Below the pieces are notes generated by a model, which was not told the DNA's origin, ran no database searches, and saw only the letters and a list, made by a program, of their open reading frames with translations. Below are positions 3,447 to 21,825 of a DNA stretch of 21,825 nt, piece after piece (position 1 is the first letter of the stretch; each line of letters begins with the position of its first letter). Source of the stretch: a virus; IMG/VR virus record IMGVR_UViG_3300022871_000134, positions 1-21,825 of that record; one strand, 5' to 3'. The translations under genes and the position numbers were made by a program.

Positions 3447-4427
3447 ATGTTAAAAAAGCTTCCTAAGTCCATTAAGACTAAAACGCCTGTGAGAAAAAGA
3501 AAAGCGTCTGGTTATGATGGTGCCTTGAATAGCAAGAACCGTTTAAACCGCTCTTATGTAACTACTTACTCTGTTGACGAAGATAATTTAATAGGAGCTT
3601 ATCAGGCAGAGAGATTGCGTCTTGAGGCAAAAGACTTGTTCAGGAACGGCATAGGTAAGGCTTGTGTAGACAGGTTTAGCACTTATGTAGTTGGCACAGG
3701 TTTTAACATTCAGGCTAAGACGAGCGATAAAATATGGAATACAAAGTCAGAAAAATATTTTCAAAATTGGGGTAAAGTAGCAGACTATAATAAAAGGAGA
3801 ACGTGGAATGAAATATTACAAACCATTGTCCGTGATAGATTGCTTGTCGGTGAATCGTTTTTTATCCTTACATTATGGGGGCAATTACAGCCAATTGAGG
3901 CAGAGAGGATCTGCACCCCAGAGCCAGCTAGTAAGTTTGCGACAAAGAAAATTGTTGCAGGTGCAGAGATTGTTAAAGGGATAATAGTTGCTTGGTATAT
4001 TTGTGACAGAGACAAGTATGGTGTTATTGACAAACGCAAGTATACTCGTATAGCCGCTAGAGATATGGTTCACGTAGCGGCAACTTGGAGATGGGATGCT
4101 GTCCGTAGTTTGGCAGAGTTATCACCGATATTAGATACACTCAGAGACAAATCTGAGTTTACAACTTCCACGATTATATCCGCCAAAATTGCTGCTCGTA
4201 AATCATTAATAGTAATGAGTGACAGTGATATGCCTACTACCCTGCCAGCTCGGAGCACCGATGAGTCTTCATCCAGCAGTGGTACAATCCAAAAACGCAC
4301 GAAGATTATCAAAACAAACGACGGCGAAATTTACTACGGAAATCCTGGTGACAAGCTGGAAACCTTAAACAAGAAGTGCCAGCAACAACCTACCCTGAAT
4401 TTACTAAGTCTATTCTGGGAGAGGTAG
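3447..4427 (+). CDS. Portal protein, gpB/Phage_portal_2 type, N-terminal part (frame broken)
   Basis: The start is ATG 3447, with GAGGA about ten bases ahead, right after the gpW-like stop. Residues 1-~310 match the lambda portal family: GYDGA near the N-terminus, the LRLEAKDLFRNG...KACVDRF helix and VVGTGFNIQAK (family pattern 'R.rdl.rNn..a..av....vG.G'), then ERICTPE, MVHVAATWRWDAVRSLAELSPIL and GEIYYGNPGDKLE. After that the reading frame carries an unrelated tail (CQQQPTLNLLSLFWER) to a TAG at 4425-4427, while the expected continuation appears in the -1 frame. Joined, the two parts give about 532 aa, essentially the length of lambda gpB (533). A short DESSSSSG tract sits in a presumed loop. 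As it stands this part alone would not make a working dodecameric portal. Confidence 0.88.
   Translation: MLKKLPKSIKTKTPVRKRKASGYDGALNSKNRLNRSYVTTYSVDEDNLIGAYQAERLRLEAKDLFRNGIGKACVDRFSTYVVGTGFNIQAKTSDKIWNTKSEKYFQNWGKVADYNKRRTWNEILQTIVRDRLLVGESFFILTLWGQLQPIEAERICTPEPASKFATKKIVAGAEIVKGIIVAWYICDRDKYGVIDKRKYTRIAARDMVHVAATWRWDAVRSLAELSPILDTLRDKSEFTTSTIISAKIAARKSLIVMSDSDMPTTLPARSTDESSSSSGTIQKRTKIIKTNDGEIYYGNPGDKLETLNKKCQQQPTLNLLSLFWER
4364..4380 (+). other. Frame-change site inside the portal gene (-1)
   Basis: The upstream frame is open to 4427 and the -1 frame is open from 4352 (a TGA lies at 4349-4351), so the change must occur between 4352 and 4424. C-TTA-AAC at 4364-4370 is phased as an X-XXY-YYZ slippery heptamer and would give LET-L-KQEV-PATTYPEF. 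A lost base in the A-rich stretch 4367-4376 (giving NKKV-PATTYPEF) explains the data equally well. I see no strong downstream hairpin, so a mutation or sequencing indel is slightly favoured over programmed shifting. Confidence 0.75.
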
Positions 4428-5044
4428 CTGCAATATTGGGCATATCTTATCAGGTGCTTATGTTGGAGTTAGCCAAGACAGATGAGGTGCAATTGAGAGT
4501 AGCTAGCCAGATATTTAAAATTTGGCAGCAATGGCTTTCTGAGAAATTCATTGAAAAGATTTGGAACTGGAGAATTGCCAAGGCTGTTAAGGCAGGAGAT
4601 TTGCCACCAGCACCCCTAGATGATAATGGTGTATCAGAATGGTATAAGATAGTTATCCTACCGCCACCTGATCCATTCGTAAAAGACGAAACCGCAAGAG
4701 ATGTTGCCGGTTTTAACCTTGGCTCCGTATCTATAACCCAGATTGCCCATAGAAAATCATTAGATAACAGGGAGTTACTAAGCGAAAAGACAGACGACAT
4801 TGGTGTTGCTATTGAATTGGCAGATGATTTGAATATAAAACATCCTGGGCAAAACATAACCTGGAGGGATGTTATTAACTCTACGGGTCCAGCGTCCTTA
4901 TCAGCCGTCCAAACTGCTGCCGATCAAGAAGTCCTAAAAGAAAAGGACGATAAAAAAGAAGAAGAGGAAGAAGAGGAAGAGGTTAAAAAGGTAGTAGTGC
5001 CAAAAAAGAGTATCATTAGTAAACTATTTAATAGATTTAAGTAA
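4376..5044 (+). CDS. Portal protein, C-terminal part in the -1 frame
   Basis: This frame continues the portal: PATTYPEFTKSILGEVAAILGISYQVL aligns with the family's 'PststfeaF....lr.iAaglGipYe.L' segment, which follows the 'pGd' motif found at the end of the first part. It then has the aromatic LRVASQIFKIWQQWLSEKFIEKIWNWRI helix, a PPDPFVKDETARD stretch typical of the gpB clip/wing end, and a long acidic tail (about 12 Glu in a row of 20) before a basic end (SIISKLFNRFK). The nominal first codon is GTG 4376, but no ribosome site precedes it and the sequence begins mid-domain, so independent translation is unlikely. It is best read as the second half of the gene at 3447. Confidence 0.85.
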   Translation: MPATTYPEFTKSILGEVAAILGISYQVLMLELAKTDEVQLRVASQIFKIWQQWLSEKFIEKIWNWRIAKAVKAGDLPPAPLDDNGVSEWYKIVILPPPDPFVKDETARDVAGFNLGSVSITQIAHRKSLDNRELLSEKTDDIGVAIELADDLNIKHPGQNITWRDVINSTGPASLSAVQTAADQEVLKEKDDKKEEEEEEEEVKKVVVPKKSIISKLFNRFK

Positions 5045-5079: not shown

Positions 5080-6057
5080 ATGGATAAGAAAATATTAAGT
5101 ATAGTCAAAGTTAACAAATGGGCAATGGACATCGAAGCCTTTAAAGCCCTGCAAACAAATCTGCACTTAACAGATGCTTCCACTTTCGATTTAAAAATTG
5201 GTTACGAGCAACCCAACTACAATGTTGTTAATGGTGTTGCTGTTATCCCAATCAAAGGGGTGTTGTCAAAAGGCGTCTCTGATATTGAGGCTATTTTTCT
5301 AGATGTTATTGATACAGATAATGTTTCAGATATGTTTTCTAAAGCGGAAAGAGATGAAACTGTTGAGTCAATCGTGCTTGATATCAATAGCCCTGGTGGT
5401 TCTGCTGCTGGTATCCCAGAGTTATACGACAGAGTTTCCAATAGTTCCAAGCCTGTAATATCTTATGTTGATGAGATGTGTGCGTCGGGAGCCTACTGGA
5501 TTGCCTCTGCTAGTGACGCAATCTATGCAACCAAATCTGCTGATGTTGGTAGCATTGGTTGTTTCGTTTCGTTCCTTGATGTTAGTAAATACTTTGAAAA
5601 TCTTGGTGTGAAAAACGAAATGATTATCTCAACTGGATCAAAATATAAAGGGATGGGTGCTCCAGGGACATCGTTATCTGACACACATAGAGAGCAGTTG
5701 CAGACAGAGGTAGATTATATTAACGATATGTTCCACGAGGATGTTAACAAAAATAGAGCGATTAATCCTGACGATATGGCGGGACAAACCTTTATTGGTT
5801 CGATGGCTGAGAAAGCAGGTTACGTTGATAATATCGTGCTAGATGGTATTGATAGGGCAATGGCAGATGTTACTACCTTAGCTAATTTTAACGCCCAGAA
5901 ACAAGTATCGGAAACCTCAGTACAAGTTGAGGAATATAATTGTTCGTGTATAGATTGTGGGCACAAAATGAAATCGGATAAACATTGTAACACAATCAAG
6001 TGTCCTAAATGCGGCGGAGAAATGAGACGGCAGGAACGCCCAGGACCAGGAAGATAA
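5080..6057 (+). CDS. Head maturation protease, S49/SppA family (lambda gpC type), with C-terminal zinc ribbon
   Basis: This is a serine protease expected to cleave scaffold and other head proteins inside the prohead. The 325-residue product starts at ATG 5080 behind AAGGATTAAA. The S49 core is complete: VAVIPIKG strand (about 53-60), LDINSPGGS oxyanion segment (100-108), CASGAYWIAS with the catalytic Ser136, VGSIGCFVSF (156-165) and STGSKYKGMG with the candidate catalytic lysine (188 or 190). The position after the portal and before the scaffold and capsid is that of gpC. Unusually, residues 290-311 form a zinc ribbon with C290-x2-C293 and C308-x2-C311 (CIDCGH...CPKCGGEMRR), followed by a PGPGR end. 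In lambda the corresponding C-terminal region encodes the nested scaffold Nu3; here the scaffold candidate is a separate gene. Confidence 0.92.
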   Translation: MDKKILSIVKVNKWAMDIEAFKALQTNLHLTDASTFDLKIGYEQPNYNVVNGVAVIPIKGVLSKGVSDIEAIFLDVIDTDNVSDMFSKAERDETVESIVLDINSPGGSAAGIPELYDRVSNSSKPVISYVDEMCASGAYWIASASDAIYATKSADVGSIGCFVSFLDVSKYFENLGVKNEMIISTGSKYKGMGAPGTSLSDTHREQLQTEVDYINDMFHEDVNKNRAINPDDMAGQTFIGSMAEKAGYVDNIVLDGIDRAMADVTTLANFNAQKQVSETSVQVEEYNCSCIDCGHKMKSDKHCNTIKCPKCGGEMRRQERPGPGR

Positions 6058-6578: not shown

Positions 6579-7475
6579 ATGAGTATAACAGCGAATTTAG
6601 ATGTAGCCGTGATCGCCCAGAAAGCCATTGCGTCACTAAAAGTTAAGTTGCCTGCCCTTGCTGCGTTCTCCACCTCGTTTGGAGCTCAAGTGCAAGATAA
6701 GGGTGTGTCGGTAACCGTTCCATTGATTGGTTCAAAGACTGGTGGGGATTTCTCAGGAAATTACACCACGGATGCATCAAACAATGTGTCGTCAACTACC
6801 GTAACCCTTGACCAGTCAACGGATTCCGTAACTGGTTTAACAGACATCGAGTATGCGGATACTGGTTTACAAATTCTCAGCGACTATGCCGCAGAAGATA
6901 TGTATGCAGTTGCTAAGGTATGCGTAGATTATGCATTGGGCATCGTAACTGTTGCAAATTACCAAAGAGAGTTTGAGGTTGCCGCAGCCAGTTTTGCTGT
7001 TAGCTCTGTTATCTCTCTTAAAGCCGAGGCAATGAAGAGAGGTTTTGACACTGGCATAATTATGCTTAATGCAACGGCTTATGCCGCTTGGTTGGCTAGT
7101 TATGTGACCGCAGTTACATTCACTCCTGGCCAAAACCCAGAAACTACAGAGTTCCTTGGATTTAAGGTAATACCTTATATGAGTATGCCAACCAGCGAAG
7201 CTCTGATCGGTATTTGTTGCAATCCTGTCGCCCTGGCAGTTGCCTCAAGACCAGTTGCAGTGCTTCCTGGTGCAGGAACTGGAACTCAGCAAGCAGTTGT
7301 AACTGATGCTGACTCTGGTATTAGCCTTGGATTGAGAAGCTATTACAGCAACGACACTGGTAGACAAATCCAGGCCGTACATCAAGTTCACGGTGCCGCA
7401 GTAGGTAAGGCTGACGCTTTGATCAGGATTGTTTCAACTGATCAGAACAACAGTAGCACCTCGTCACAGACCTAA
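6579..7475 (+). CDS. Major capsid protein candidate, paralog 1
   Basis: This 298-residue protein starts at ATG 6579 behind AAAGGAATAAAATA. It has an N-terminal helix (NLDVAVIAQKAIASLKVKLPALAAF), a strand region with VTVPLIGSKTGGDFSGNYTTDASN, then TDIEYADTGLQIL, a long alpha region (VISLKAEAMKRGFD...IIMLNATAYAAWLA), and a conserved end (GISLGLRSYYSNDTGRQIQAVHQVHGAAVG). The composition, size, absence of membrane segments and place after protease and scaffold all fit an HK97-fold coat protein, with a P22-coat-like feel, but I cannot name a family with certainty. It is followed after 66 bases by a strongly similar gene. Its tail is short and only mildly serine-rich (NNSSTSSQT), unlike its paralog. 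It is the better candidate for the bulk shell subunit. Confidence 0.75.
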   Translation: MSITANLDVAVIAQKAIASLKVKLPALAAFSTSFGAQVQDKGVSVTVPLIGSKTGGDFSGNYTTDASNNVSSTTVTLDQSTDSVTGLTDIEYADTGLQILSDYAAEDMYAVAKVCVDYALGIVTVANYQREFEVAAASFAVSSVISLKAEAMKRGFDTGIIMLNATAYAAWLASYVTAVTFTPGQNPETTEFLGFKVIPYMSMPTSEALIGICCNPVALAVASRPVAVLPGAGTGTQQAVVTDADSGISLGLRSYYSNDTGRQIQAVHQVHGAAVGKADALIRIVSTDQNNSSTSSQT

Positions 7476-7541: not shown

Positions 7542-8600
7542 ATGAGTATAACATCTGATCTGGATCTATCCGCAATTGTAAAAACTGCGATTGCAAGTTT
7601 AAAAGTTAAATTACCTATTTTATCTGCGTTCTCCACCGACTTCGGTGCTCAGGTAAAGTCCGTTGGAACCTCGTTAACTGTGCCTTTAATAGGTGCTAAA
7701 TTGACTGCTGGAGCATTTAGTGGTAATTATACTACTGATGCTAGTAATAGTGTAACATCGACAAAAGTAACCCTAGATAAGTCAACAGACAGCGGAACGG
7801 GATTAACCGACATCGAATACGCCGACACTGGTTTGCAAATTTTAGGTGATTATCTGAAAGAAGATGTCTATGCTGTAGCTCGAGTTGTGGTTGATAACGC
7901 CCTAGATATAATTACTGTCGCAAATTACGCAAACGAATATGTCAAAGCCGCTGCGTCTTTTGATTTAGACTCAGTGATTGCCCTTAAAACACAGGCTATG
8001 GCGTTAGGTTGGGACAGAGGAACGATTGTTTTAAATGCAGATGCATATGCTAATTTCCTTGGAGAATATGTTGATGCGGTGACATTTACGCCAGGACAAG
8101 ATCCGAATGTCCTTGAATTTTTAGGTTTTAAAATTATATGTTATCCAAATTTGCCTACAACTGAAACAATGATTGGTTTCTGTTGTAATCCGATTAGTAT
8201 AGCAGTAGCAAGTAGACCTGTAGCCATTCCTCCGAATGCAAAAGCAGGTGGCACGACAGTATCAGTTACTACAGAAGCCGATAGCGGTATTTCTCTTGGA
8301 TTAAGAAGTTATTACTCAAACGATACTGGCAGACAAATTCAAATTATCCATCAAGTTCACGGTGCCGCAGTAGGGCTCACAAATGGTTTAATTAGAATAG
8401 TCTGGTCTGACCAGATTGGTTCAACAAGTTCGGAAAGCAGCTTGAGTAGCCCAAGCAGCCCTAGCTCTCCTAGTAGCAAGAGTAGCTTAAGCAGCCCTAG
8501 CAGCAAGAGTAGCCTAAGCAGCCTGTCGTCAAGTAGCGAAAGTAGTTTAAGTTCTGTTAGTTCAATTAGTTCAATTAGCTCAATTAGCTCAAATCCATAG
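7542..8600 (+). CDS. Major capsid protein candidate, paralog 2, with C-terminal serine-rich tail
   Basis: This 352-residue protein starts at ATG 7542. Residues 1-~290 align over their whole length with the preceding capsid gene, sharing MSIT, IASLKVKLP, VPLIG, FSGNYTTDASN, TGLTDIEYADTGLQIL, VTFTPGQ, CCNP, VASRPVA and SGISLGLRSYYSNDTGRQIQ; identity is roughly 60% by eye. DNA identity is much lower except for a 26-bp identical patch (7380-7405 versus 8349-8374). The paralog adds a tail from about residue 296 of Ser-Ser-X triplets (SSPSSPSSPSSKSSL, SSISSISSISSNP), coded by 8427-8591. The tail would be disordered and probably exposed on the shell. The gene could encode a minor coat subunit, a vertex subunit or a decorated form. 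A strong terminator follows. Confidence 0.75.
   Translation: MSITSDLDLSAIVKTAIASLKVKLPILSAFSTDFGAQVKSVGTSLTVPLIGAKLTAGAFSGNYTTDASNSVTSTKVTLDKSTDSGTGLTDIEYADTGLQILGDYLKEDVYAVARVVVDNALDIITVANYANEYVKAAASFDLDSVIALKTQAMALGWDRGTIVLNADAYANFLGEYVDAVTFTPGQDPNVLEFLGFKIICYPNLPTTETMIGFCCNPISIAVASRPVAIPPNAKAGGTTVSVTTEADSGISLGLRSYYSNDTGRQIQIIHQVHGAAVGLTNGLIRIVWSDQIGSTSSESSLSSPSSPSSPSSKSSLSSPSSKSSLSSLSSSSESSLSSVSSISSISSISSNP
8427..8591 (+). repeat. Serine-coding repeat tract, capsid paralog 2 tail
   Basis: About 55 codons of Ser-Ser-X, mostly AGT/AGC pairs with X = Leu, Pro, Lys, Val or Ile. It begins just after the end of homology with capsid paralog 1, so it is an addition to the C-terminus. Confidence 0.85.
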
Positions 8601-9051: not shown

Positions 9052-9705
9052 ATGTCCGTCCAAGTTGACTTAACACAATTTAATGCCGCAATGCTCCGTT
9101 ATAAAAAAGAAACAGGCAAGACGCTAGAAGAGTCTTGTAACCGTTCCTTAAAGAACCTCATCATCCACGCTGTTAAAGGTAACTATATCCGTCAGGCACA
9201 AAGAGCAAGTATAGAAGCAATCAGGAGAGCACCATGGTTTAACAAATATATAACTAAATTACTTGGGCATAAATTTACACCAAGTAAAGCAAGGAAGGTA
9301 ACTCAAAAAGGCATGGGGCTAAGTGGCAGGAAATCAACAACTGATTATAGGATTAAATGGGACAAACTTGCCAATGCAATAATTAAAAAAAGAGTTAGGG
9401 CAATAAAATTTTTAACAAAACTAATGGCTAGTTGCTCTCGTGTTATCCCAGCTAAAAATGCAAAGTCGGCAGGCTGGGTTGCTAAGATACCAGGGAGTTT
9501 TGCTTATGTTAAGGTAGCAACCCAGATGAAACCAACTGCATCAATTAGTTTTGGGTTTGATTATAAAAACTCTAGAAAAAGAGTTAAATCATCTGGTGGT
9601 GCGGAGAGAATAATGGGGCAGGCGATACGGAAGGCAGTTCCAGAGACCGTAAAAGATATGGAACAATATATTGCCAATAAGTTGCGTAAAAAATATAAGC
9701 AATAG
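9052..9705 (+). CDS. Putative tail completion/minor tail protein (gpZ/gp10-like)
   Basis: This is a 217-residue, strongly basic protein with ATG 9052 behind AAGGATTAAAAT. It opens VDLTQFNAAMLRYKKETGKTLEESCNRSLKNLIIHAVK, an amphipathic helical start common in gpZ and HK97-gp10-type tail completion proteins, which have a helical 'f...l.......k..e...n..a..l...a' opening. It has several Arg/Lys-rich stretches and a C-terminal helix (VKDMEQYIANKLRKKYK). Lambda gpZ (192 aa) sits in the same place, between FII and U. Its job would be to ready the tail for joining to the head. The family assignment is by pattern and synteny, not by a diagnostic motif. Confidence 0.55.
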   Translation: MSVQVDLTQFNAAMLRYKKETGKTLEESCNRSLKNLIIHAVKGNYIRQAQRASIEAIRRAPWFNKYITKLLGHKFTPSKARKVTQKGMGLSGRKSTTDYRIKWDKLANAIIKKRVRAIKFLTKLMASCSRVIPAKNAKSAGWVAKIPGSFAYVKVATQMKPTASISFGFDYKNSRKRVKSSGGAERIMGQAIRKAVPETVKDMEQYIANKLRKKYKQ

Positions 9706-9722
9706 TATAATAGGTATAATTA

Positions 9723-10226
9723 ATGGCTAATATTTATAAAATCAAAAAGGATGTTGAAAATCTTTTTAAGCAATATCTAAGAGACGAGTTGCCTCCAACC
9801 GAATCTTCTTCATCATCATCCCCTAGCTCAATTAGTAATACTTATTCTGGCAGTTCCAACAGCTCATCCGACAGGGATTATAATTATCTAACTGGTATGA
9901 CGGGTGATGAATTTGCCTTGCCTGCCATTACTATTATCTGTCAGGAAGCCAATATGGACATACTATCCTACAACTGGGACTGTCTGGTTGAGATAGGCAT
10001 ATGGCACCATTATGCTGACTCAACAAGGGCGATCCATAACGACAAGGTAGCAGAGATTAGAGATAAACTGATTGTTGACTCTGAGGATTTATGCACAATC
10101 TTGAACACCAATACCTTAGGAATAGATGCTATGCTCTATACTCCAACGGAAAGTAATAGAAGCGTAGAAGGTAAAAAATGGCTAACCGTTCAATCATTAA
10201 CCCTCAAATGTAACTACTTAGGATAA
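9723..10226 (+). CDS. Tail terminator-like protein (gpU position), paralog 1
   Basis: This 167-residue acidic protein starts at ATG 9723. The gpU position (after the gpZ-like gene) and size suggest a tail terminator, which caps the growing tail tube and fixes its length. It has an N-terminal helix (KKDVENLFKQYLRDEL), a serine-rich loop at about 28-49 (SSSSSSPSSIS...SSNSSSD), then YLTGMTGDEFALPAITI, DILSYNWDCLVEIGIWHHYADSTRAIHNDKVAEIRDKLIVDSEDLCTILN and a closing strand (EGKKWLTVQSLTLKCNYLG). The N-terminal 150 residues of the gene at 10888 match it closely (LxGMTxxEyxLPAI, LSYNW, HYxDS, HxDKVA, DKLxVDSxDLCxILNT, GKKW). The stretch just before its start (TATAATAGG) resembles the 3' half of the 22-bp motif but lacks TTGACA. 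Confidence 0.5.
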   Translation: MANIYKIKKDVENLFKQYLRDELPPTESSSSSSPSSISNTYSGSSNSSSDRDYNYLTGMTGDEFALPAITIICQEANMDILSYNWDCLVEIGIWHHYADSTRAIHNDKVAEIRDKLIVDSEDLCTILNTNTLGIDAMLYTPTESNRSVEGKKWLTVQSLTLKCNYLG

Positions 10227-10228
10227 TT

Positions 10229-10888
10229 ATGAGCAAAATAGCAATAGGTATTAGGTGTTTTGGTAACCCAGATAGTATGTTCCATCGTTCTCTTATCCGT
10301 TTTCTGCAATTAAATAAAACACAGAACACAATGCTTTTACCAACTGTTTATGATCTACCCTACCATGTTGCAGCCAATGAGATTTCAAAGCTATTTCTAG
10401 ATAGTGGATATGACAACTTACTCTTCCTAGATAGCGATATGGTGTTTGAGTATGAAGACTTTTTAAAGATTAAAGCCGACATTGAAGATCCAAAGAATGA
10501 CAAGTATGGAATTATATCAGGATTATACCCCACACGCAGAGGAAAACTAATGCCATTAGTGATGTTTAAGCAAGGAGACGCATGGGTTAGCGATGTAACT
10601 AAATTAGTTGATGGGATTACAACAGTGGACGGTTGCGGATTAGGATTTACTGTTGTTAGAAGAAAATGTTTTGACCTACCTTGTTTTAAAGATAGTCCAT
10701 ATTTTGTGATGAAAGAAGAAGTAAGTGAAGATGTTTATTTTTGTGAAGCAGTAAAAGAACACGGTATATTAACTGGTTTGGATAAGGATATAAACCTTGG
10801 TCATAGAACAGCAGTAACAGTAAAATGGAATTTAAAAGATAACAAGGCGGATTTATTTACCCAGGATTGTTTTGGGAGAAGTAATTAA
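10229..10888 (+). CDS. Glycosyltransferase, GT-A fold (family 2-like)
   Basis: This 219-residue protein starts at ATG 10229 (AGGATAATT ahead), two bases after the previous stop. It has GT-A hallmarks: a leading strand IAIGIRCFG, YDNLLFLDSDMVFE with the metal-binding DxD as Asp68-Ser-Asp70, GIISGLYPTRR, VDGCGLGFTVVRRKCF, then SEDVYFCEAVKEHGI (166-180) and INLGHRTAV with a late His. This is the usual phage GT-A layout, in which SED and GH supply acceptor and metal contacts. It should transfer a sugar from a nucleotide sugar; donor and acceptor cannot be read from sequence. It is sandwiched between two tail terminator paralogs and its stop overlaps the start of the giant serine-rich protein (TAATG), so that protein's serines are the obvious acceptor candidate. 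It lacks membrane segments, so it probably acts in the cytoplasm. Confidence 0.82.
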   Translation: MSKIAIGIRCFGNPDSMFHRSLIRFLQLNKTQNTMLLPTVYDLPYHVAANEISKLFLDSGYDNLLFLDSDMVFEYEDFLKIKADIEDPKNDKYGIISGLYPTRRGKLMPLVMFKQGDAWVSDVTKLVDGITTVDGCGLGFTVVRRKCFDLPCFKDSPYFVMKEEVSEDVYFCEAVKEHGILTGLDKDINLGHRTAVTVKWNLKDNKADLFTQDCFGRSN

Positions 10889-13584
10889 TGACACAAAGAT
10901 ATCAAAATGTAGAAGCGGTTCTTGAAGATATTTTCAAACAATATCTCCTGGGTAGCCTATACTCTTTTTCGTCTTCTTCTACATCTGGTTATGCTTATCT
11001 TGAGGGTATGACGGATGAGGAATACACCTTACCTGCTATCCTTATACAATGTCCTACGGCAATTGTTGATCCCTTAAGTTATAATTGGACGATTAATGTC
11101 AATATTAGTGTAGCCAATCATTATGTTGACAGTAATTCTGATGCCCACGAAGACAAGGTTGCTAAGGTGTTTGACAAGTTGGTTGTTGACTCTGACGATT
11201 TATGCGACATTTTAAACACAACATCCTTAGATTTACACTGTCAGCAATGGAGTATTCTTGATGCCAAAAAAGAAGTAGTGGGTAAAAAATGGATATCAAC
11301 CATTTATGCCACAATGCTTTGTAACTTGAGATTTCCTGAGAGTAGTTCTTCATTTAGTAGTTTAAGTTCCGCTAGTAGCCCAAGCAGTTTGAGTTCTTTC
11401 AGTAGTAAAAGTAGTTCTAGTATCTCTTCTGTTTCCAGTAGCACAGCGACATCTGCAAGTCCAAGTTCTATTAGTAGTAAGAGTAGTTTGTTTTCCAGTA
11501 GCAAGAGTAGCGTTAGTAGCGTGAGCAGCCCATCATCAAGTAGCAAGAGTAGTTTAAGTTCGGCTAGTAGTTTGAGTAGTGCTAGTAGTATGTCTTCTAG
11601 TAGCAAGAGTTCCTTAAGCAGTCTATCTTCAAGCAGTATTAGCAGTGTTAGTAGCCTAAGTAGTTTGAGCAGCCTAAGTTCAAGTAGCCCTAGTAGTAAG
11701 AGCAGTTTAAGTTCCTTGAGCAGCCTAAGTTCCAGTAGTAAGAGTTCCTATAGTAGTATTAGTAGTGCAAGCAGTTTATCTTCTAGTAGCATTAGCAGCC
11801 AGAGCAGCCTAAGTAGCTTAAGCAGTTTGTCATCCAGTAGTCAAAGTAGTTTAAGCAGTCTGAGCAGCCTAAGTTCTAGCAGCCTAAGTAGTCTGAGTAG
11901 CCAGAGTAGTATTTCTTCAAGCAGTATCAGCAGCCAGAGTAGCCAGAGTTCCTTGAGCAGCCTAAGTTCCAGTAGTCAAAGTAGCCCAAGTAGTTTAAGT
12001 AGCTTATCTTCTAGCAGCCTAAGTAGCTTATCTTCAGTTAGTAGCCTAAGTTCCAGTAGTCAGAGCAGCTTAAGTAGCCTGAGCAGTTTAAGTTCTAGCA
12101 GCCAGAGTAGTTTGAGTTCCTTAAGCAGCCTGTCGTCTAGCAGCCAGAGTAGTCTAAGCAGTTTAAGTAGCTTAAGTTCTAGCAGCCTAAGTAGTCAGAG
12201 TTCCTTGAGCAGTCTATCCTCTAGTAGTCAGAGTAGCCCAAGTAGTTTAAGTAGCATATCATCCAGTAGCCAGAGTAGTCTTAGTAGTCTGAGCAGTTTG
12301 TCATCTAGCAGTGTTAGTAGTGTCAGCAGCATAAGTAGTGTTAGCAGTTTATCTTCCAGTAGCCAGAGTAGTTTGAGTAGCCTAAGCAGCCTGTCGTCTA
12401 GCAGCCAGAGTAGCCTTAGTAGCCTGAGTAGTTTGTCTTCTAGTAGCCAGAGCAGTCAGAGTAGTTTAAGTAGTTTGTCATCCAGTAGTCAGAGTAGTAT
12501 CAGTTCCTTAAGTAGCATATCATCCAGCAGCCAGAGTAGTCTAAGTAGTCTTAGTAGCCTAAGTTCCAGTAGTCAGAGTAGCCCAAGTAGTTTAAGTAGC
12601 ATATCATCCAGTAGCCAGAGCAGCCAGAGCAGCCTGAGCAGCCTAAGTTCAAGTAGTCAAAGTAGCCCAAGTAGCCTGAGTAGCTTATCTTCCAGTAGCC
12701 AGAGTAGCCCAAGTAGTTTAAGTAGCTTAAGTTCTAGCAGCCTAAGTAGTCAGAGTTCCTTAAGCAGCCTGTCGTCAAGCAGTCAGAGTAGTTTGAGTTC
12801 CTTAAGTAGCTTATCTTCCAGCAGCCAGAGCAGTTTAAGTAGTCTGAGTAGCCTATCGTCTAGTAGCCAGAGTAGTCTAAGTAGCCTGAGCAGTTTAAGT
12901 TCTAGCAGCCAGAGTAGTTTGAGTTCCTTAAGCAGTCTATCTTCTAGCAGCGAAAGTTCCTTGAGTAGCCTATCATCTAGTAGCGAAAGTTCCTTAAGTA
13001 GTCTATCATCTAGTAGCGAAAGTTCCTTAAGTAGCCTATCTTCCAGCAGTGAAAGTTCCTTGAGTAGCCTATCTTCTAGTAGCGAAAGTTCCTTGAGTAG
13101 CCTATCATCTAGTAGTCAAAGTAGCCTAAGCAGCCTAAGTAGTGATATCTGTCCTAATAACATATCAGCAATCAATACAGATATACACGCTGATGATACT
13201 ATATTTACTATTGAGAGCCAAATAGCATTGACAGTTAATGGTGGTGTTGACCAGGATAATTACTTATTGCTGTATGACGGAGATACTGCTGGTCAACCTT
13301 ATGACAATGACAATAGATTTTACGGTGAGGTTACTACCTATGATGCTCAGACCTTGACATCTAATGGATTTGTAACAACCTTGGTTAATGGCAAGGAATA
13401 TTACTTACCAATCTATAAGGGCGATGCAACTGTTGATTGTTGCTCTAACTTAATTGGCACACAATACGCAGAAGAATTTTTTGATACTTACACCTTAGCT
13501 GGGTATATATTAATTAAAGTTAATGGAGATGTATTTAAATACACCCCTGTATTTGAGGTAGCGGAAAGTTCTAGTAGCCCGTAG
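10888..13584 (+). CDS. Tail terminator paralog 2 fused to a 600-residue serine-rich repeat and a C-terminal domain
   Basis: This 898-residue protein has three parts. Residues 1-~150 are paralogous to the gene at 9723 (LEGMTDEEYTLPAI, LSYNW, ANHYVDS, DKLVVDSDDLCDILNT, VVGKKW). Residues 152-752 are Ser-Ser-X repeats, mainly 14-residue (SSLSSLSSLSSSSQ) and 11-residue (SSLSSLSSSSQ or ...E) units with X = Leu, Gln, Pro, Lys, Glu, Val or Ile. Residues 753-898 are a separate, apparently folded beta-rich domain (DTIFTIESQIALTVNGG, NYLLLYDGDTAG, YYLPIYKGDATVDCCS, YILIKVNGDVFKYTP). It starts inside the glycosyltransferase stop. The repeat region keeps its frame through about 1.8 kb, which implies selection on the protein. 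It would be disordered and extended; a surface arm on the neck or tail is inferred. No secretion signal is present. Confidence 0.85.
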   Translation: MTQRYQNVEAVLEDIFKQYLLGSLYSFSSSSTSGYAYLEGMTDEEYTLPAILIQCPTAIVDPLSYNWTINVNISVANHYVDSNSDAHEDKVAKVFDKLVVDSDDLCDILNTTSLDLHCQQWSILDAKKEVVGKKWISTIYATMLCNLRFPESSSSFSSLSSASSPSSLSSFSSKSSSSISSVSSSTATSASPSSISSKSSLFSSSKSSVSSVSSPSSSSKSSLSSASSLSSASSMSSSSKSSLSSLSSSSISSVSSLSSLSSLSSSSPSSKSSLSSLSSLSSSSKSSYSSISSASSLSSSSISSQSSLSSLSSLSSSSQSSLSSLSSLSSSSLSSLSSQSSISSSSISSQSSQSSLSSLSSSSQSSPSSLSSLSSSSLSSLSSVSSLSSSSQSSLSSLSSLSSSSQSSLSSLSSLSSSSQSSLSSLSSLSSSSLSSQSSLSSLSSSSQSSPSSLSSISSSSQSSLSSLSSLSSSSVSSVSSISSVSSLSSSSQSSLSSLSSLSSSSQSSLSSLSSLSSSSQSSQSSLSSLSSSSQSSISSLSSISSSSQSSLSSLSSLSSSSQSSPSSLSSISSSSQSSQSSLSSLSSSSQSSPSSLSSLSSSSQSSPSSLSSLSSSSLSSQSSLSSLSSSSQSSLSSLSSLSSSSQSSLSSLSSLSSSSQSSLSSLSSLSSSSQSSLSSLSSLSSSSESSLSSLSSSSESSLSSLSSSSESSLSSLSSSSESSLSSLSSSSESSLSSLSSSSQSSLSSLSSDICPNNISAINTDIHADDTIFTIESQIALTVNGGVDQDNYLLLYDGDTAGQPYDNDNRFYGEVTTYDAQTLTSNGFVTTLVNGKEYYLPIYKGDATVDCCSNLIGTQYAEEFFDTYTLAGYILIKVNGDVFKYTPVFEVAESSSSP
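11341..13143 (+). repeat. Large serine-coding repeat (Ser-Ser-X, 33/42-bp units)
   Basis: Spans 601 codons without a frame break. Unit lengths of 42 and 33 bp alternate. Six units with Glu cluster at the 3' end (about 12950-13110), while Gln units dominate the middle and varied X residues the 5' end. Serine is coded by both AGY and TCN: L-flanked Ser pairs are mostly AGY-AGY, and four-Ser blocks usually carry a TCN codon near the front. Two serine codon families mixed throughout limit the length of perfect DNA repeats. Confidence 0.92.
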
Positions 13585-13586
13585 AC

Positions 13587-13608
13587 ATTGACAAAGTAAT
13601 ATAAGGTA
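13587..13608 (+). promoter_or_regulatory. 22-bp recurrent intergenic motif, copy 6 (diverged)
   Basis: ATTGACAAAGTA, ATAT, AAGGTA: the least conserved copy, with one change in the first block and changes in the second. It begins three bases after the serine-rich gene's stop and ends 30 bases before the 13639 start. Confidence 0.5.
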
Positions 13609-13638
13609 GAACATTAATTATAATTAAAGGAATAAAAT

Positions 13639-13989
13639 ATGAGCACAGCACCAATTCAAAAAGGTACAACGGTTTTTCTTGGTTACGGTAGTTACACATA
13701 CGATGTCATATTGACAGACGATATGACCGTATCTCCAATCGCAGATGTGTCAACGATTAATGACGAAATGAATGCTACAACTACAGTTATCGTATATAAT
13801 CCTGGCGAACATCTTGATATGTCGGGAGTTATAAAAGGCACCGTGGTTCCTACTATTCTATTAGTGGGTGGAACGGTTTCAATTAATGCAGTCACCTGGA
13901 GAGTTGAGAAATACGATATTAAACTTGCCAGAACGGAAGCTAAGTTAACATTAGCAGCGATTAAAGAAGCAAGTATGACATATACCTAA
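13639..13989 (+). CDS. Putative small tail tube or tail structural protein
   Basis: This 116-residue protein starts at ATG 13639 behind AAAGGAATAAAAT. It is almost all beta: TTVFLGYGSYTYDVILTDDMTVSPIADVSTI, ATTTVIVYNPGEHLDMSGVIKGTVVPTILLVGGTVSINAVTWRVEKYDIKLARTEAKLTLAAIKEASMTY. Repeating strands with 'GtVvP', 'GGtvsI...tWrV' and 'tLtLaai' are typical of small tube- or ring-forming phage proteins. It has its own upstream motif copy, as an abundant product might. Lambda gpV, the tail tube protein, follows gpU as this gene does, but gpV is about twice as long. A connector-type ring protein is an alternative. No other tail tube candidate is visible in the window. Confidence 0.45.
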   Translation: MSTAPIQKGTTVFLGYGSYTYDVILTDDMTVSPIADVSTINDEMNATTTVIVYNPGEHLDMSGVIKGTVVPTILLVGGTVSINAVTWRVEKYDIKLARTEAKLTLAAIKEASMTYT

Positions 13990-14022
13990 ACTTTAATTGT
14001 TGTGTAGGATTAAAGGATTAGG

Positions 14023-14649
14023 ATGTATAGCATATATCAAGATGCACTATTGGCACCAAAAGATGTAGCCATTTGTGGCATAGAGATTGGGCAACTAACA
14101 ATTGCTCAATCTGCTTGCCTGTGGGCTATGGAAAACCCTTTTGTATTTTCTGCTAAGGGTAGTCTTGCTCAATTTTGTACTGTCTTAGTAGTCCTTCAAA
14201 AGTCCTACCCCTTCAGCGATATAGACAATTGGGTTACGGAAGCATTAGCACTGAGAAAGAAATTAGTTGAAAAACCAAGGGGTATATTGAAATATTTTAA
14301 AAAGAATAAGGTTTACAGCATAGACGATATTGACATAGAAATACAAAGCCTTGTTAATTATTTTAAATATCATAACAAAGCCCATCCTAGGGCTTTCCCT
14401 GCTGACCAACCAAACAAAACTCCAACCATCCCCTGGCAATGGAGTGTTGTATTTTCACTGAGAAGATACTTCAAAGAAGATGATATTAAGGCTTGGAACT
14501 ATCCATTACTGAAGGCTATGGCATACCACGCTGCTATATGTCACTCATTGGGCGATGACACTTTATACAACGAAATGGATTGCAACATTCGTGAAGAAGG
14601 TGAAAAGGAAGAAGAATTAAAAGAAGAGGAAAAATCAAATGGCGGATAG
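14023..14649 (+). CDS. Putative tail assembly chaperone (gpG position)
   Basis: This 208-residue protein starts at ATG 14023 behind AAAGGATTAGG. It is largely helical with an aromatic-rich middle (YHNKAHPRAFPADQPNKTPTIPWQWSVVFSLRRYF), a conserved-looking AMAYHAAICHSLGDDTLYNEMD segment and an acidic, lysine-rich tail (EEGEKEEELKEEEK). It sits between the tail tube candidate and the tape-measure candidate and overlaps the latter by 11 nt, the slot of the gpG/gpGT tail chaperones. Those are usually made by programmed frameshifting; I see no second chaperone frame here. The function is inferred from position only. Confidence 0.4.
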   Translation: MYSIYQDALLAPKDVAICGIEIGQLTIAQSACLWAMENPFVFSAKGSLAQFCTVLVVLQKSYPFSDIDNWVTEALALRKKLVEKPRGILKYFKKNKVYSIDDIDIEIQSLVNYFKYHNKAHPRAFPADQPNKTPTIPWQWSVVFSLRRYFKEDDIKAWNYPLLKAMAYHAAICHSLGDDTLYNEMDCNIREEGEKEEELKEEEKSNGG

Positions 14650-16225
14650 AGCACAAATTAATGCAGTCATAAAAGGTGATGCTAAGGATTTTAATAAGTC
14701 AATTGACTCGGCAAGTAACAAGGCAAAAACCTTTGTTACTGGGGCTCTCAAACAAATGGGCGGTGCTATAGTTGCTGCCTTTGCCGTTCAACGGGTTATC
14801 CAGTTTGGTAAAGAGTTATTAAGAGTTGCTGATGATATACAAACAACCGCAAACACCTTTGGCATAGCAGTAGAGTCAGTGCTTGCATTTAAAGGAGTAA
14901 TGGCAGAGTCGGGAATTGGTGTTGAGAAGTTTATGAAGATGTTTGGACGAATGGTATCGGCACAGGCAGATGCTCGTAAGGGATTAACCACATATGTTGA
15001 TGCCTTGAGAGATATGAATATTTCCGCTAGAGATTTTAGTAGTTTAAAGGTTGATAAGTTAATGGAATTAATGGCAAAGAAATATCAAGAGGCTGGGGAC
15101 AAAATGTTATTCCTTGGTGGTGCTGCTAAACTTTTGGGCACAAAGATAGGCCCAAATTTAATTGAGGTGTTCCAAAGGATTAATGAAGAGGGAATGGCTG
15201 AGTTTACTGAAGAAGCTAAAAAAGCTGCCGACGGAGTAAAAGAACTAGCGGCTACAAGTGATGCATTAGAGGGGTTTTTTGATACTATTCAAACTCGTTC
15301 ATTATCGGCAGCGGGAGCAATGATTTCACTTGGAAAAGAGTTTCAAGCAATGGCAAAGTGGTATCAAGGTGGTATTGGTCCTTTAGGCGAAATGAGATCG
15401 GGAAGGAAAGAAACCTTTAAATCAATAGGGTTGGGGCGTTTTGAAGAAGATGTTACAGATGAAGAAAGAGATGACTTTGATGAAGTTGCAAAACTTGTTA
15501 ATAAACAAGTAGACGAGATAACAGGCGGTGGGTTAAAGGGTTATCTTTACAAAGTTATGCATCCACAATTGATGCAAGTTTTGTCTGATTATGCCACAAC
15601 ATTAATACGCAAAAGAAAATTAAGAGAAGAAGACGAAGCAAAAGAAAAACAAGCCGCACAAGATAAATTAAAAGCAGATAGACTACTTGCAAATTCACCA
15701 ATGCCATCCGAATCAAAAGAATTTTTAAAATGGTATGATTTGTATGAAAAAAGATTATTAGGACAAAAAGATATACTTAGTCAAATTGCTTATTATGAAG
15801 AAGAAATTAATTCCTTGCACAAAGACCAAGTAGAAGATCCATCAAATTATAATATTGCAATTGATATTTTAAAATTAGAGAAGAAGAGATATGATTTAGT
15901 TGTTAAAATAAATAAAGAGCAAGAAAAAGGATTGAAGGATTATTTTAAAGACGAAGAAGCATTTGCTAAACGGCTGGGTAAGGCTAAAAAAGAGGAAGAA
16001 AAAAAGATAGAAGAGGCACCTAGAGAAAGGTTTAACGAACTAGCAAGGATAGGTGGACAGGTTGGTGGACAGGGTAACTTTGCAGCAGGCAATGCAATTA
16101 AGGCAATTAATGTGGCAGAAAAACAAGCTAGGATTGCAGAGTCAAGTGATAAAAAATTAACAGAAATAAGAGTTGCGGTAGATAAGTTAAACAACAAGCC
16201 AGAAGAAGGGGCAGTTTTACAATAG
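14639..16225 (+). CDS. Putative tape measure protein
   Basis: This 528-residue protein starts at ATG 14639 with GAGG about nine bases ahead, overlapping the previous gene by 11 nt. The N-terminus AQINAVIKGDAKDFNKSIDSASNKAKTFVTGALKQMGGAIVAAF is a typical tape-measure opening: a helical 'k.f.k.l..a...' repeat leading to a hydrophobic, glycine-rich helix (about 35-52). Most of the rest is charged coiled coil (KEEEKKIEEAPRERFNELARI, RIAESSDKKLTEIRVAVDKL). If this is the tape measure, the usual rule of about 1.5 angstroms per residue predicts a tail near 80 nm. It is short against lambda gpH (853 aa). A different coiled-coil tail protein is possible, but the position after the chaperone candidate supports the call. 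Confidence 0.65.
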   Translation: MADRAQINAVIKGDAKDFNKSIDSASNKAKTFVTGALKQMGGAIVAAFAVQRVIQFGKELLRVADDIQTTANTFGIAVESVLAFKGVMAESGIGVEKFMKMFGRMVSAQADARKGLTTYVDALRDMNISARDFSSLKVDKLMELMAKKYQEAGDKMLFLGGAAKLLGTKIGPNLIEVFQRINEEGMAEFTEEAKKAADGVKELAATSDALEGFFDTIQTRSLSAAGAMISLGKEFQAMAKWYQGGIGPLGEMRSGRKETFKSIGLGRFEEDVTDEERDDFDEVAKLVNKQVDEITGGGLKGYLYKVMHPQLMQVLSDYATTLIRKRKLREEDEAKEKQAAQDKLKADRLLANSPMPSESKEFLKWYDLYEKRLLGQKDILSQIAYYEEEINSLHKDQVEDPSNYNIAIDILKLEKKRYDLVVKINKEQEKGLKDYFKDEEAFAKRLGKAKKEEEKKIEEAPRERFNELARIGGQVGGQGNFAAGNAIKAINVAEKQARIAESSDKKLTEIRVAVDKLNNKPEEGAVLQ

Positions 16226-20779: not shown

Positions 20780-21825
20780 ATGAATATTTATTGGTCATAT
20801 ACCGAACATAAAATAATCCAAAGCATTTATTCTAAAAATGTTGTTAACTCATTTACTTGGGTTCTTAGGGATTATGTTGCTATAGATTTATTTGTTGTTA
20901 CTCCCCAGATTTCTAACACTCAGCCATACATAATTGGTGAAATTCCCGATGGATTTTCTTTTAAAATATCTGGCAAAAAGAATAAATTTTTTAAAGACAA
21001 CCCATTACTATGCGATGGCTCTTGGACACAACACGGCACGGGCGAGGACACTTATTATGAGACTAATGTTAGATTAGATAACAACGCCCTTGTCCCAGAA
21101 ATGGGTGAAACAAGCGAATTAGATTTAATTGGAGAATTAGCCAGGACAAGAGAAAATGAAAATTATGATAGCACAAGATTTAATTTAAAAATTATATCTG
21201 ATATAATAAGGTTGAGCGATGTATGCCCAACTCCTGTGGAATACAGCTCTTCCAGCTCATTGAGTTCATTAAGTTCTAGTAGTTCGTCCTTCAGTAGTCT
21301 AAGTAGCGTAAGCAGTTATAGCAGTTCAAGCAGTGCTAGTAGCGTTAGTAGCTTAAGCTCCAGTAGCGTAAGTAGCCAGAGTAGCCAGAGTAGCGAGAGC
21401 AGTAGTGCAACTAGCACAAGCAGTAGCGAAAGTTGGAGCACGGAGACAAGCAGTTCCACATCCCAGAGCAGCCTAAGTAGTAGCTCGATCAGCAGTATTA
21501 GTAGTCTATCGTCTAGTAGTATCAGTAGTATAAGTAGTTCTAGTAGTTTGAGTAGCCTGAGTTCAAGTAGTTTGAGTAGTGTTAGTAGTCCTAGTAGTGT
21601 CAGTAGCACCAGTAGTAAGAGTAGCCCAAGCAGCCTGAGTTCCAGTAGCGTCAGTTCCGTATCCTCTGTAAGTTCGGAAAGTTCCTACCCTTACGAGGTA
21701 ACTTATTGCGATGGTAGGTTCTCTATATTCCCAAGGACGGAACCAAATATTGTGTTAGATAATAAGACGGGTAGATATTGGACAAAAGATGCCAATATTG
21801 GTGGAACTATGTCTCAAGGTGCTGC
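20780..21825 (+). CDS. Tail protein with serine-rich linker and DUF1566/Lcl-like C-terminus, 3' end cut by window
   Basis: ATG 20780 follows the previous stop with no gap, and the frame stays open to the window end (348 codons). The N-terminal ~155 residues form a distinct domain (MNIYWSYTEHKIIQSIYS, SFTWVLRDYVAIDLFVVTPQ, EIPDGFSFKISGKKNKFF, ETNVRLDNNALVPEMGETSELDL), probably an attachment domain to the tail. Residues 156-302 are a Ser-Ser-X linker with varied X residues. After YPYEVTYCDGRF comes NIVLDNKTGRYWTKDANIGGTM, which fits the opening of the DUF1566/Lcl C-terminal family ('v.DnrTGLmWtkdan.gg..tw.eA'). Members of that family have a C-type-lectin-like fold and bind surface ligands, so the protein is a candidate receptor binder. 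Less than 30 residues of that domain are visible, so the assignment is provisional. Confidence 0.75.
   Translation, partial: MNIYWSYTEHKIIQSIYSKNVVNSFTWVLRDYVAIDLFVVTPQISNTQPYIIGEIPDGFSFKISGKKNKFFKDNPLLCDGSWTQHGTGEDTYYETNVRLDNNALVPEMGETSELDLIGELARTRENENYDSTRFNLKIISDIIRLSDVCPTPVEYSSSSSLSSLSSSSSSFSSLSSVSSYSSSSSASSVSSLSSSSVSSQSSQSSESSSATSTSSSESWSTETSSSTSQSSLSSSSISSISSLSSSSISSISSSSSLSSLSSSSLSSVSSPSSVSSTSSKSSPSSLSSSSVSSVSSVSSESSYPYEVTYCDGRFSIFPRTEPNIVLDNKTGRYWTKDANIGGTMSQGA
21245..21685 (+). repeat. Serine-coding repeat tract, terminal tail protein linker
   Basis: 147 codons, mostly Ser-Ser-X with X = Leu, Val, Ile, Gln, Tyr, Phe, Glu, Ala, Thr, Pro or Lys. It is less regular than the tract at 11341-13143, has no dominant 11- or 14-residue unit, and includes an odd Trp (ESWSTETSSS). 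It links two apparently folded domains. Confidence 0.88.

Follow-up and report, generated by a model that had tools for sequence, protein, structure and literature searches.

A glycosyltransferase (GT) of a viral protein family and a giant serine-rich protein are encoded by overlapping genes among the head, neck and tail genes of an uncultured tailed phage. The GT has the GT-A fold and intact invariant motifs, its relatives in other phages are encoded beside capsid and neck genes, and purifying selection acts on the GT as well as on the serine codons and the tip of the serine-rich arm. Few systems are known in which phage enzymes glycosylate the virion, and a GT gene overlapping that of a giant, putatively neck-borne Ser-rich arm represents a compact two-gene unit for the study of donor, acceptor and consequences. 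The GT family as a whole is not specifically tied to Ser-rich proteins, and its pairing with one characterises this phage lineage.

Gene organisation of the window

The window, that is, the whole stretch of 21,825 bases analysed here (viral record IMGVR_UViG_3300022871_000134), is a fragment and not a whole genome. All its main genes, and all features given below, lie on the plus strand. The terminase gene (335-2164) matches the GpA families of Pfam, and is followed by the portal gene (3447-5044), the gene for an SppA-like protease (5080-6057) and two paralogous genes for major capsid proteins, MCP-A (6579-7475) and MCP-B (7542-8600), whose products are 67% identical; MCP-B matches the major head protein family phrog_283 (E 2.5e-8). 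Small neck-type genes come next, and after them the short gene 9723-10226, the GT gene (10229-10888), the Ser-arm gene (10888-13584) and the tail genes.

The portal gene of the window consists of two overlapping reading frames (3447-4427 and 4376-5044), but it is intact in the near-identical contig L004 and in the relatives L001 and L003, so that the split is probably a sequencing or assembly frameshift of the record. In relatives, methyltransferase genes, one of them of the FkbM type, adjoin the terminase (L001, 515-2298; L003, 622-1323); instead of these, the window has at that place a small gene with paired CxxC motifs (2312-2659).

In profile searches with capsid, portal, terminator, GT and arm tip, L001 was the only relative found to span the GT/Ser-arm region, since L003 and L004 stop short of it. 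A search of 84,980 genomes of bacteria and archaea with portal and capsid gave no relatives, and among phages no DNA relatives of positions 9052-14650 were found. The sole capsid match in named phages, a weak one, was to Verrucomicrobia phage P8625 (E 9e-3), and the top terminase match was to a Paenibacillus phage (24%).

The glycosyltransferase and its family

The earlier note on this DNA had described a GT-A enzyme with DxD, SED and GH motifs, encoded by a reading frame whose stop overlaps the start of the next. Both frames are present, encoding 219 and 898 amino acids, and the TAA of the GT gene (10886-10888) shares one nucleotide with the ATG of the Ser-arm gene (10888-10890). The identification of the enzyme is likewise borne out. 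It matches phrog_1574 (E 2.4e-16), and by sequence its sole solved relative is A197 of the archaeal virus STIV (PDB 2c0n, E 7.5e-7). The AlphaFold model (pLDDT 86) also finds 2c0n as its best Foldseek match (E 1.5e-11, TM-score 0.63/0.71), followed by human LH3, mimivirus R699 and COLGALT1, all three of them GT-A enzymes acting in protein glycosylation. Across 20 aligned members of the family, D68, D70, G137, G139, E167, D168, F171, C172, G179 and H192 are invariant. The motifs named in the note thus comprise invariant residues: the metal and nucleotide-sugar motif D68-S-D70 (10430-10438), S166-E167-D168 (10724-10732), whose D168 is aligned with D151 of A197 in the alignment to 2c0n, and G191-H192 (10799-10804). 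Having the fold together with the DxD and ED motifs, the protein is a GT-A glycosyltransferase of the A197-like/phrog_1574 viral family, and is predicted to be catalytically active. It is 89% identical to its counterpart in L001, with a dN/dS of 0.093; the GT and the C-terminal domain of the arm are the best-conserved proteins between both genomes.

Relatives of the GT are encoded in 487 of the 600 viral-contig stretches that were candidates, and the gene neighbourhoods of 21 representatives at 60% identity were surveyed. The two genes directly upstream match PHROGs of major head proteins and head maturation proteases, while genes downstream match those of neck, head-tail adaptor and head-closure proteins. 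In L007 and L008 the capsid gene order differs, yet the GT again lies one gene after the capsid. The confinement of the family to the head-neck block of unrelated phages points to a virion target, most simply head or neck, and it is rather probable that a virion protein is the acceptor. The phage members of the family (for example L131-L136, L171, L007 and L008) share with the GT of the window this location and the invariant D68, D70, E167, D168, F171, C172 and H192, but are only 20-29% identical to it, are encoded directly after the capsid gene or one gene on, and have no strongly Ser-rich neighbour. Moreover, the capsid proteins beside other members do not have Ser/Thr-rich C-termini, which indicates that the family needs no Ser-rich acceptor. 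An annotation as "serine-rich adhesin" beside the GT of L007 was discarded as support, because the sequence contains no Ser-Ser repeat.

With strongly Ser-rich defined as at least 45% serine over 60 residues, none of 80 loci of the GT family contained such a gene. Conversely, no GT of the phrog_1574 type was found at 120 loci retrieved by the DNA pattern of the Ser repeat, nor in 25 whole records of Ser-rich phages. The pairing with a Ser-arm gene therefore rests on two related genomes. The coupling proposed in the earlier note is consequently upheld in part: the GT-A enzyme, the place of its family beside capsid and neck genes, the selection on serine and the enrichment of GT genes in Ser-rich phages (see below) support it, but not as a dedicated pair. 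The note had held that a GT always present without a Ser-rich protein in related phages would speak against its proposal; this is what is observed at the level of the family, but not in L001, the only close relative covering the region.

The Ser-arm protein and other serine tails

The Ser-arm protein, a putative tail terminator with an extension, consists of three parts. The N-terminal domain (10888-11340) shares 45% identity with the product of 9723-10226, which has a small Ser-rich insert, so that paralogs are encoded on both sides of the GT; it is 75% identical to L001 and has a helix-strand-helix-strand pattern, predicted with low confidence. The 601-residue Ser block (11341-13143) follows, and the C-terminal domain of 146 residues (13144-13581) closes the protein, being 90% identical to L001 with a dN/dS of 0.085. 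In Pfam, PHROG and arm-tip profile searches, no relative of this last domain was found beyond L001.

The claim that the GT lies between two tail terminator paralogs holds as regards paralogy, over the N-domain. The assignment as terminators is suggested by gene order, the pair lying between neck and tail genes (9723-10226 between neck and tape-measure genes), and by a low-confidence fold, the N-domain having a pLDDT of about 60 in a structure model built on four sequences. The two putative terminators matched no PHROG or Pfam family, and comparison with gp15 of Verrucomicrobia phage P8625, chosen as the likeliest counterpart, gave no match.

The Ser-Ser-X repeat has exactly the 601 residues that had been claimed for it (amino acids 152-752), with 426 serines (71%). 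As the other proteins of the window contain 2-13% serine, this composition is not due to chance. The block has the form (SSx)n, interrupted every 3-5 triplets by an extra SS, and is predicted to be disordered (pLDDT about 30). The non-Ser residue recurs at every third position 128 times, and at a spacing of five, through the extra SS, 39 times, resulting in units of 14, 11 and 17 residues. At each extra SS the register of the triplets shifts by two residues, which gives the periods 11, 14 and 17. The 24 in-register units of 42 bp that were compared have 24 distinct DNA sequences and 8 protein sequences, and in the Ser columns of these units the mean diversity at codon positions 1, 2 and 3 is 0.096, 0.096 and 0.453, respectively. 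Distinct DNA units and third-position variation indicate that the block grew by duplication of DNA and then diverged with serine kept by selection; it is purifying selection, not neutral drift, that has maintained the serines. In L001 the Ser block, whose flanks share 75% and 90% identity with those of the window, has 329 residues, 78% of them serine, and is built of other repeats, the longest DNA word common to both blocks being 15 bases.

The additional Ser tails reported for the capsid and the terminal protein are also present. MCP-B carries one at residues 289-350 (8406-8591), and the product of the last gene (20780-21823), which runs off the end of the record, has a 147-residue Ser block (residues 156-302, 71% Ser; 21245-21685). 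The MCP-B tails of the window, L001 and L003 are of unrelated sequence, and every one ends in SSNP. Tandem capsid paralogs occur in all relatives, with the long Ser tail on the second paralog only; MCP-A of the window lacks it.

Comparison with known systems

The GTs of the serine-rich-repeat adhesins of Gram-positive bacteria (GtfA/GtfB) form a Ser/Thr GlcNAc-transferase of the GT-B fold, whose targets are exported cell-wall adhesins. The earlier note had drawn this comparison, and the likeness stands as far as a long Ser-rich repeat with an adjoining GT gene is concerned. The enzyme of the window, in contrast, is of the GT-A fold and encoded beside a virion gene, and no accessory Sec genes are among the annotated neighbours (capsid, neck and tail genes) in this genome fragment. 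Since its GTs are of another fold, the adhesin system is an analogy only.

The closest known enzyme is A197 of STIV, the nearest solved structure by both sequence and fold: a GT-A protein of about 200 amino acids with DxD and ED motifs and no extra domains. It is essential, its loss being lethal to the virus, the exchange D151E delays replication, and it is thought to glycosylate the capsid (PMC10551542). The viral origin of the gene and the proposal of a virion target are thus shared features. The identity, however, is about 25%, STIV is an archaeal membrane-containing virus, its jelly-roll capsid protein is an acceptor by proposal only, and a Ser-rich arm is not described in PMC10551542.

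Mycobacteriophages, according to PMC12363180, which reports Freeman 2023, glycosylate capsid and tail-tube proteins by their own GTs. Che8 (gp110), Corndog (gp38) and Myrna resemble the present case in that virion proteins are the proposed targets of a GT which the phage itself encodes, with the difference that glycosylation was shown there, in that account, whereas here we infer it. When the GT was compared by tblastn with 50,697 phage records, none of the 94 matches was named as a Mycobacterium phage, and hence no sequence relationship to the mycobacteriophage GTs was detectable. Virion glycosylation by phage enzymes is therefore already known, established in mycobacteriophages and proposed for STIV, as far as these sources report it.

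Proposed role and alternative explanations

The reading favoured here is that of a virion-protein GT whose acceptors in this phage include Ser-rich disordered parts, and we rate it at even chances; much the same balance applies to the narrower statement that the Ser arm or the Ser tails are acceptors of the predicted GT. A cytoplasmic GT-A enzyme would move sugar from a host nucleotide-sugar to virion proteins of the same operon, and the acceptors in this lineage would probably include the 600-residue arm of the neck protein, perhaps as the main one, and the Ser tail of MCP-B. The N-domain would, by its gene order, probably be located at the head-tail joint and, if the usual hexamer is formed, up to six long arms per particle could result. 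The product may be a hydrated, mucin-like arm, the glycosylated disordered Ser chain being extended and protease-resistant and displaying the conserved C-terminal domain as a tip held away from the neck.

Another possibility, less probable but to be taken seriously, is that the GT targets ordinary residues of capsid or neck proteins, as is presumably true of its relatives encoded next to capsid genes, and that the Ser arm, like the polyserine linkers of bacteria, serves as a flexible, unmodified spacer, the adjacency of both genes being incidental. The relatives of the GT agree with it, having capsid and neck genes as neighbours but no Ser-rich proteins, and capsid ends that are not Ser/Thr-rich, as does the predicted disorder of the Ser block. 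Against this, in the two genomes spanning the region the GT gene has no capsid gene next to it and instead immediately precedes and overlaps the Ser-arm gene, and GT genes are enriched in Ser-rich phages generally. It is improbable, on the other hand, that the target is a host surface glycan, with exclusion of other phages, or the phage DNA, and that the place among virion genes is meaningless. Both roles are known for phage GTs generally (among the works cited in PMC12619734), and genes for DNA modification could lie elsewhere, as the 21.8-kb record is a genome fragment; but the family stays in the head-neck block of unrelated phages, the annotated genes of the window include none for DNA-base hypermodification, and, A197 aside, the fold of the GT is closest to those of protein glycosyltransferases.

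Least credible of all, and very improbable, is the view of the Ser block as neutral low-complexity DNA grown by slippage, which would make glycosylation unnecessary. The 42-bp units, with their variants of 33-51 bp, must indeed come from duplication, and the repeat sequence has been wholly replaced between the window and L001. Nevertheless, all 24 units differ as DNA, nearly only at third codon positions and with serine kept, and Ser richness persists in the arm of L001 and in the capsid tails of the window, L001 and L003.

Ser-rich proteins and glycosyltransferases in other phages

Beyond the phrog_1574 type, GT2, GT4-like (PF13692) or GT9 genes over the cut-off were found in 14 of the 25 records of Ser-rich phages, against 4 of 25 controls (Fisher p 0.007; length-stratified permutation p 0.012), the controls being records that came from the same searches but lacked Ser-rich genes, unmatched for gene module, and related records not being fully independent. 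Among the 25 Pfam families listed for 148 neighbours of Ser-rich genes, GT families were on top, whereas the 25 listed for 148 control neighbours included none. Given these controls, the kinship of records and the restriction to 25 families, the wider link of Ser-rich phage proteins with GT genes is suggestive only. It would mean that sugar-coated phage particles are possibly commoner than recognised. The more ambitious idea of a phage-made mucin, with long, disordered Ser-rich arms of neck and capsid O-glycosylated by a GT of the same operon, and of a recurrent, unrecognised module of Ser-rich proteins with assorted GTs in environmental phages, is doubtful at present. The literature library searched contained no paper on phage Ser-rich repeats or arms paired with GTs.

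Beside Ser-rich virion-type genes in L045 (59-3735), L029 (4324-7821) and L015 (6385-8399) there are clusters of genes from other GT and methyltransferase families; the GTs are of PF11397 and other types in the first, of GT9 in the second and, as a weak match, of GT2 in the third. Finally, a near-pure poly-serine protein of 973 amino acids is encoded in L310 (7391-10312) and also in L241, L264 and L248, viral contigs that come from several metagenomes and are about 63.8 kb long.
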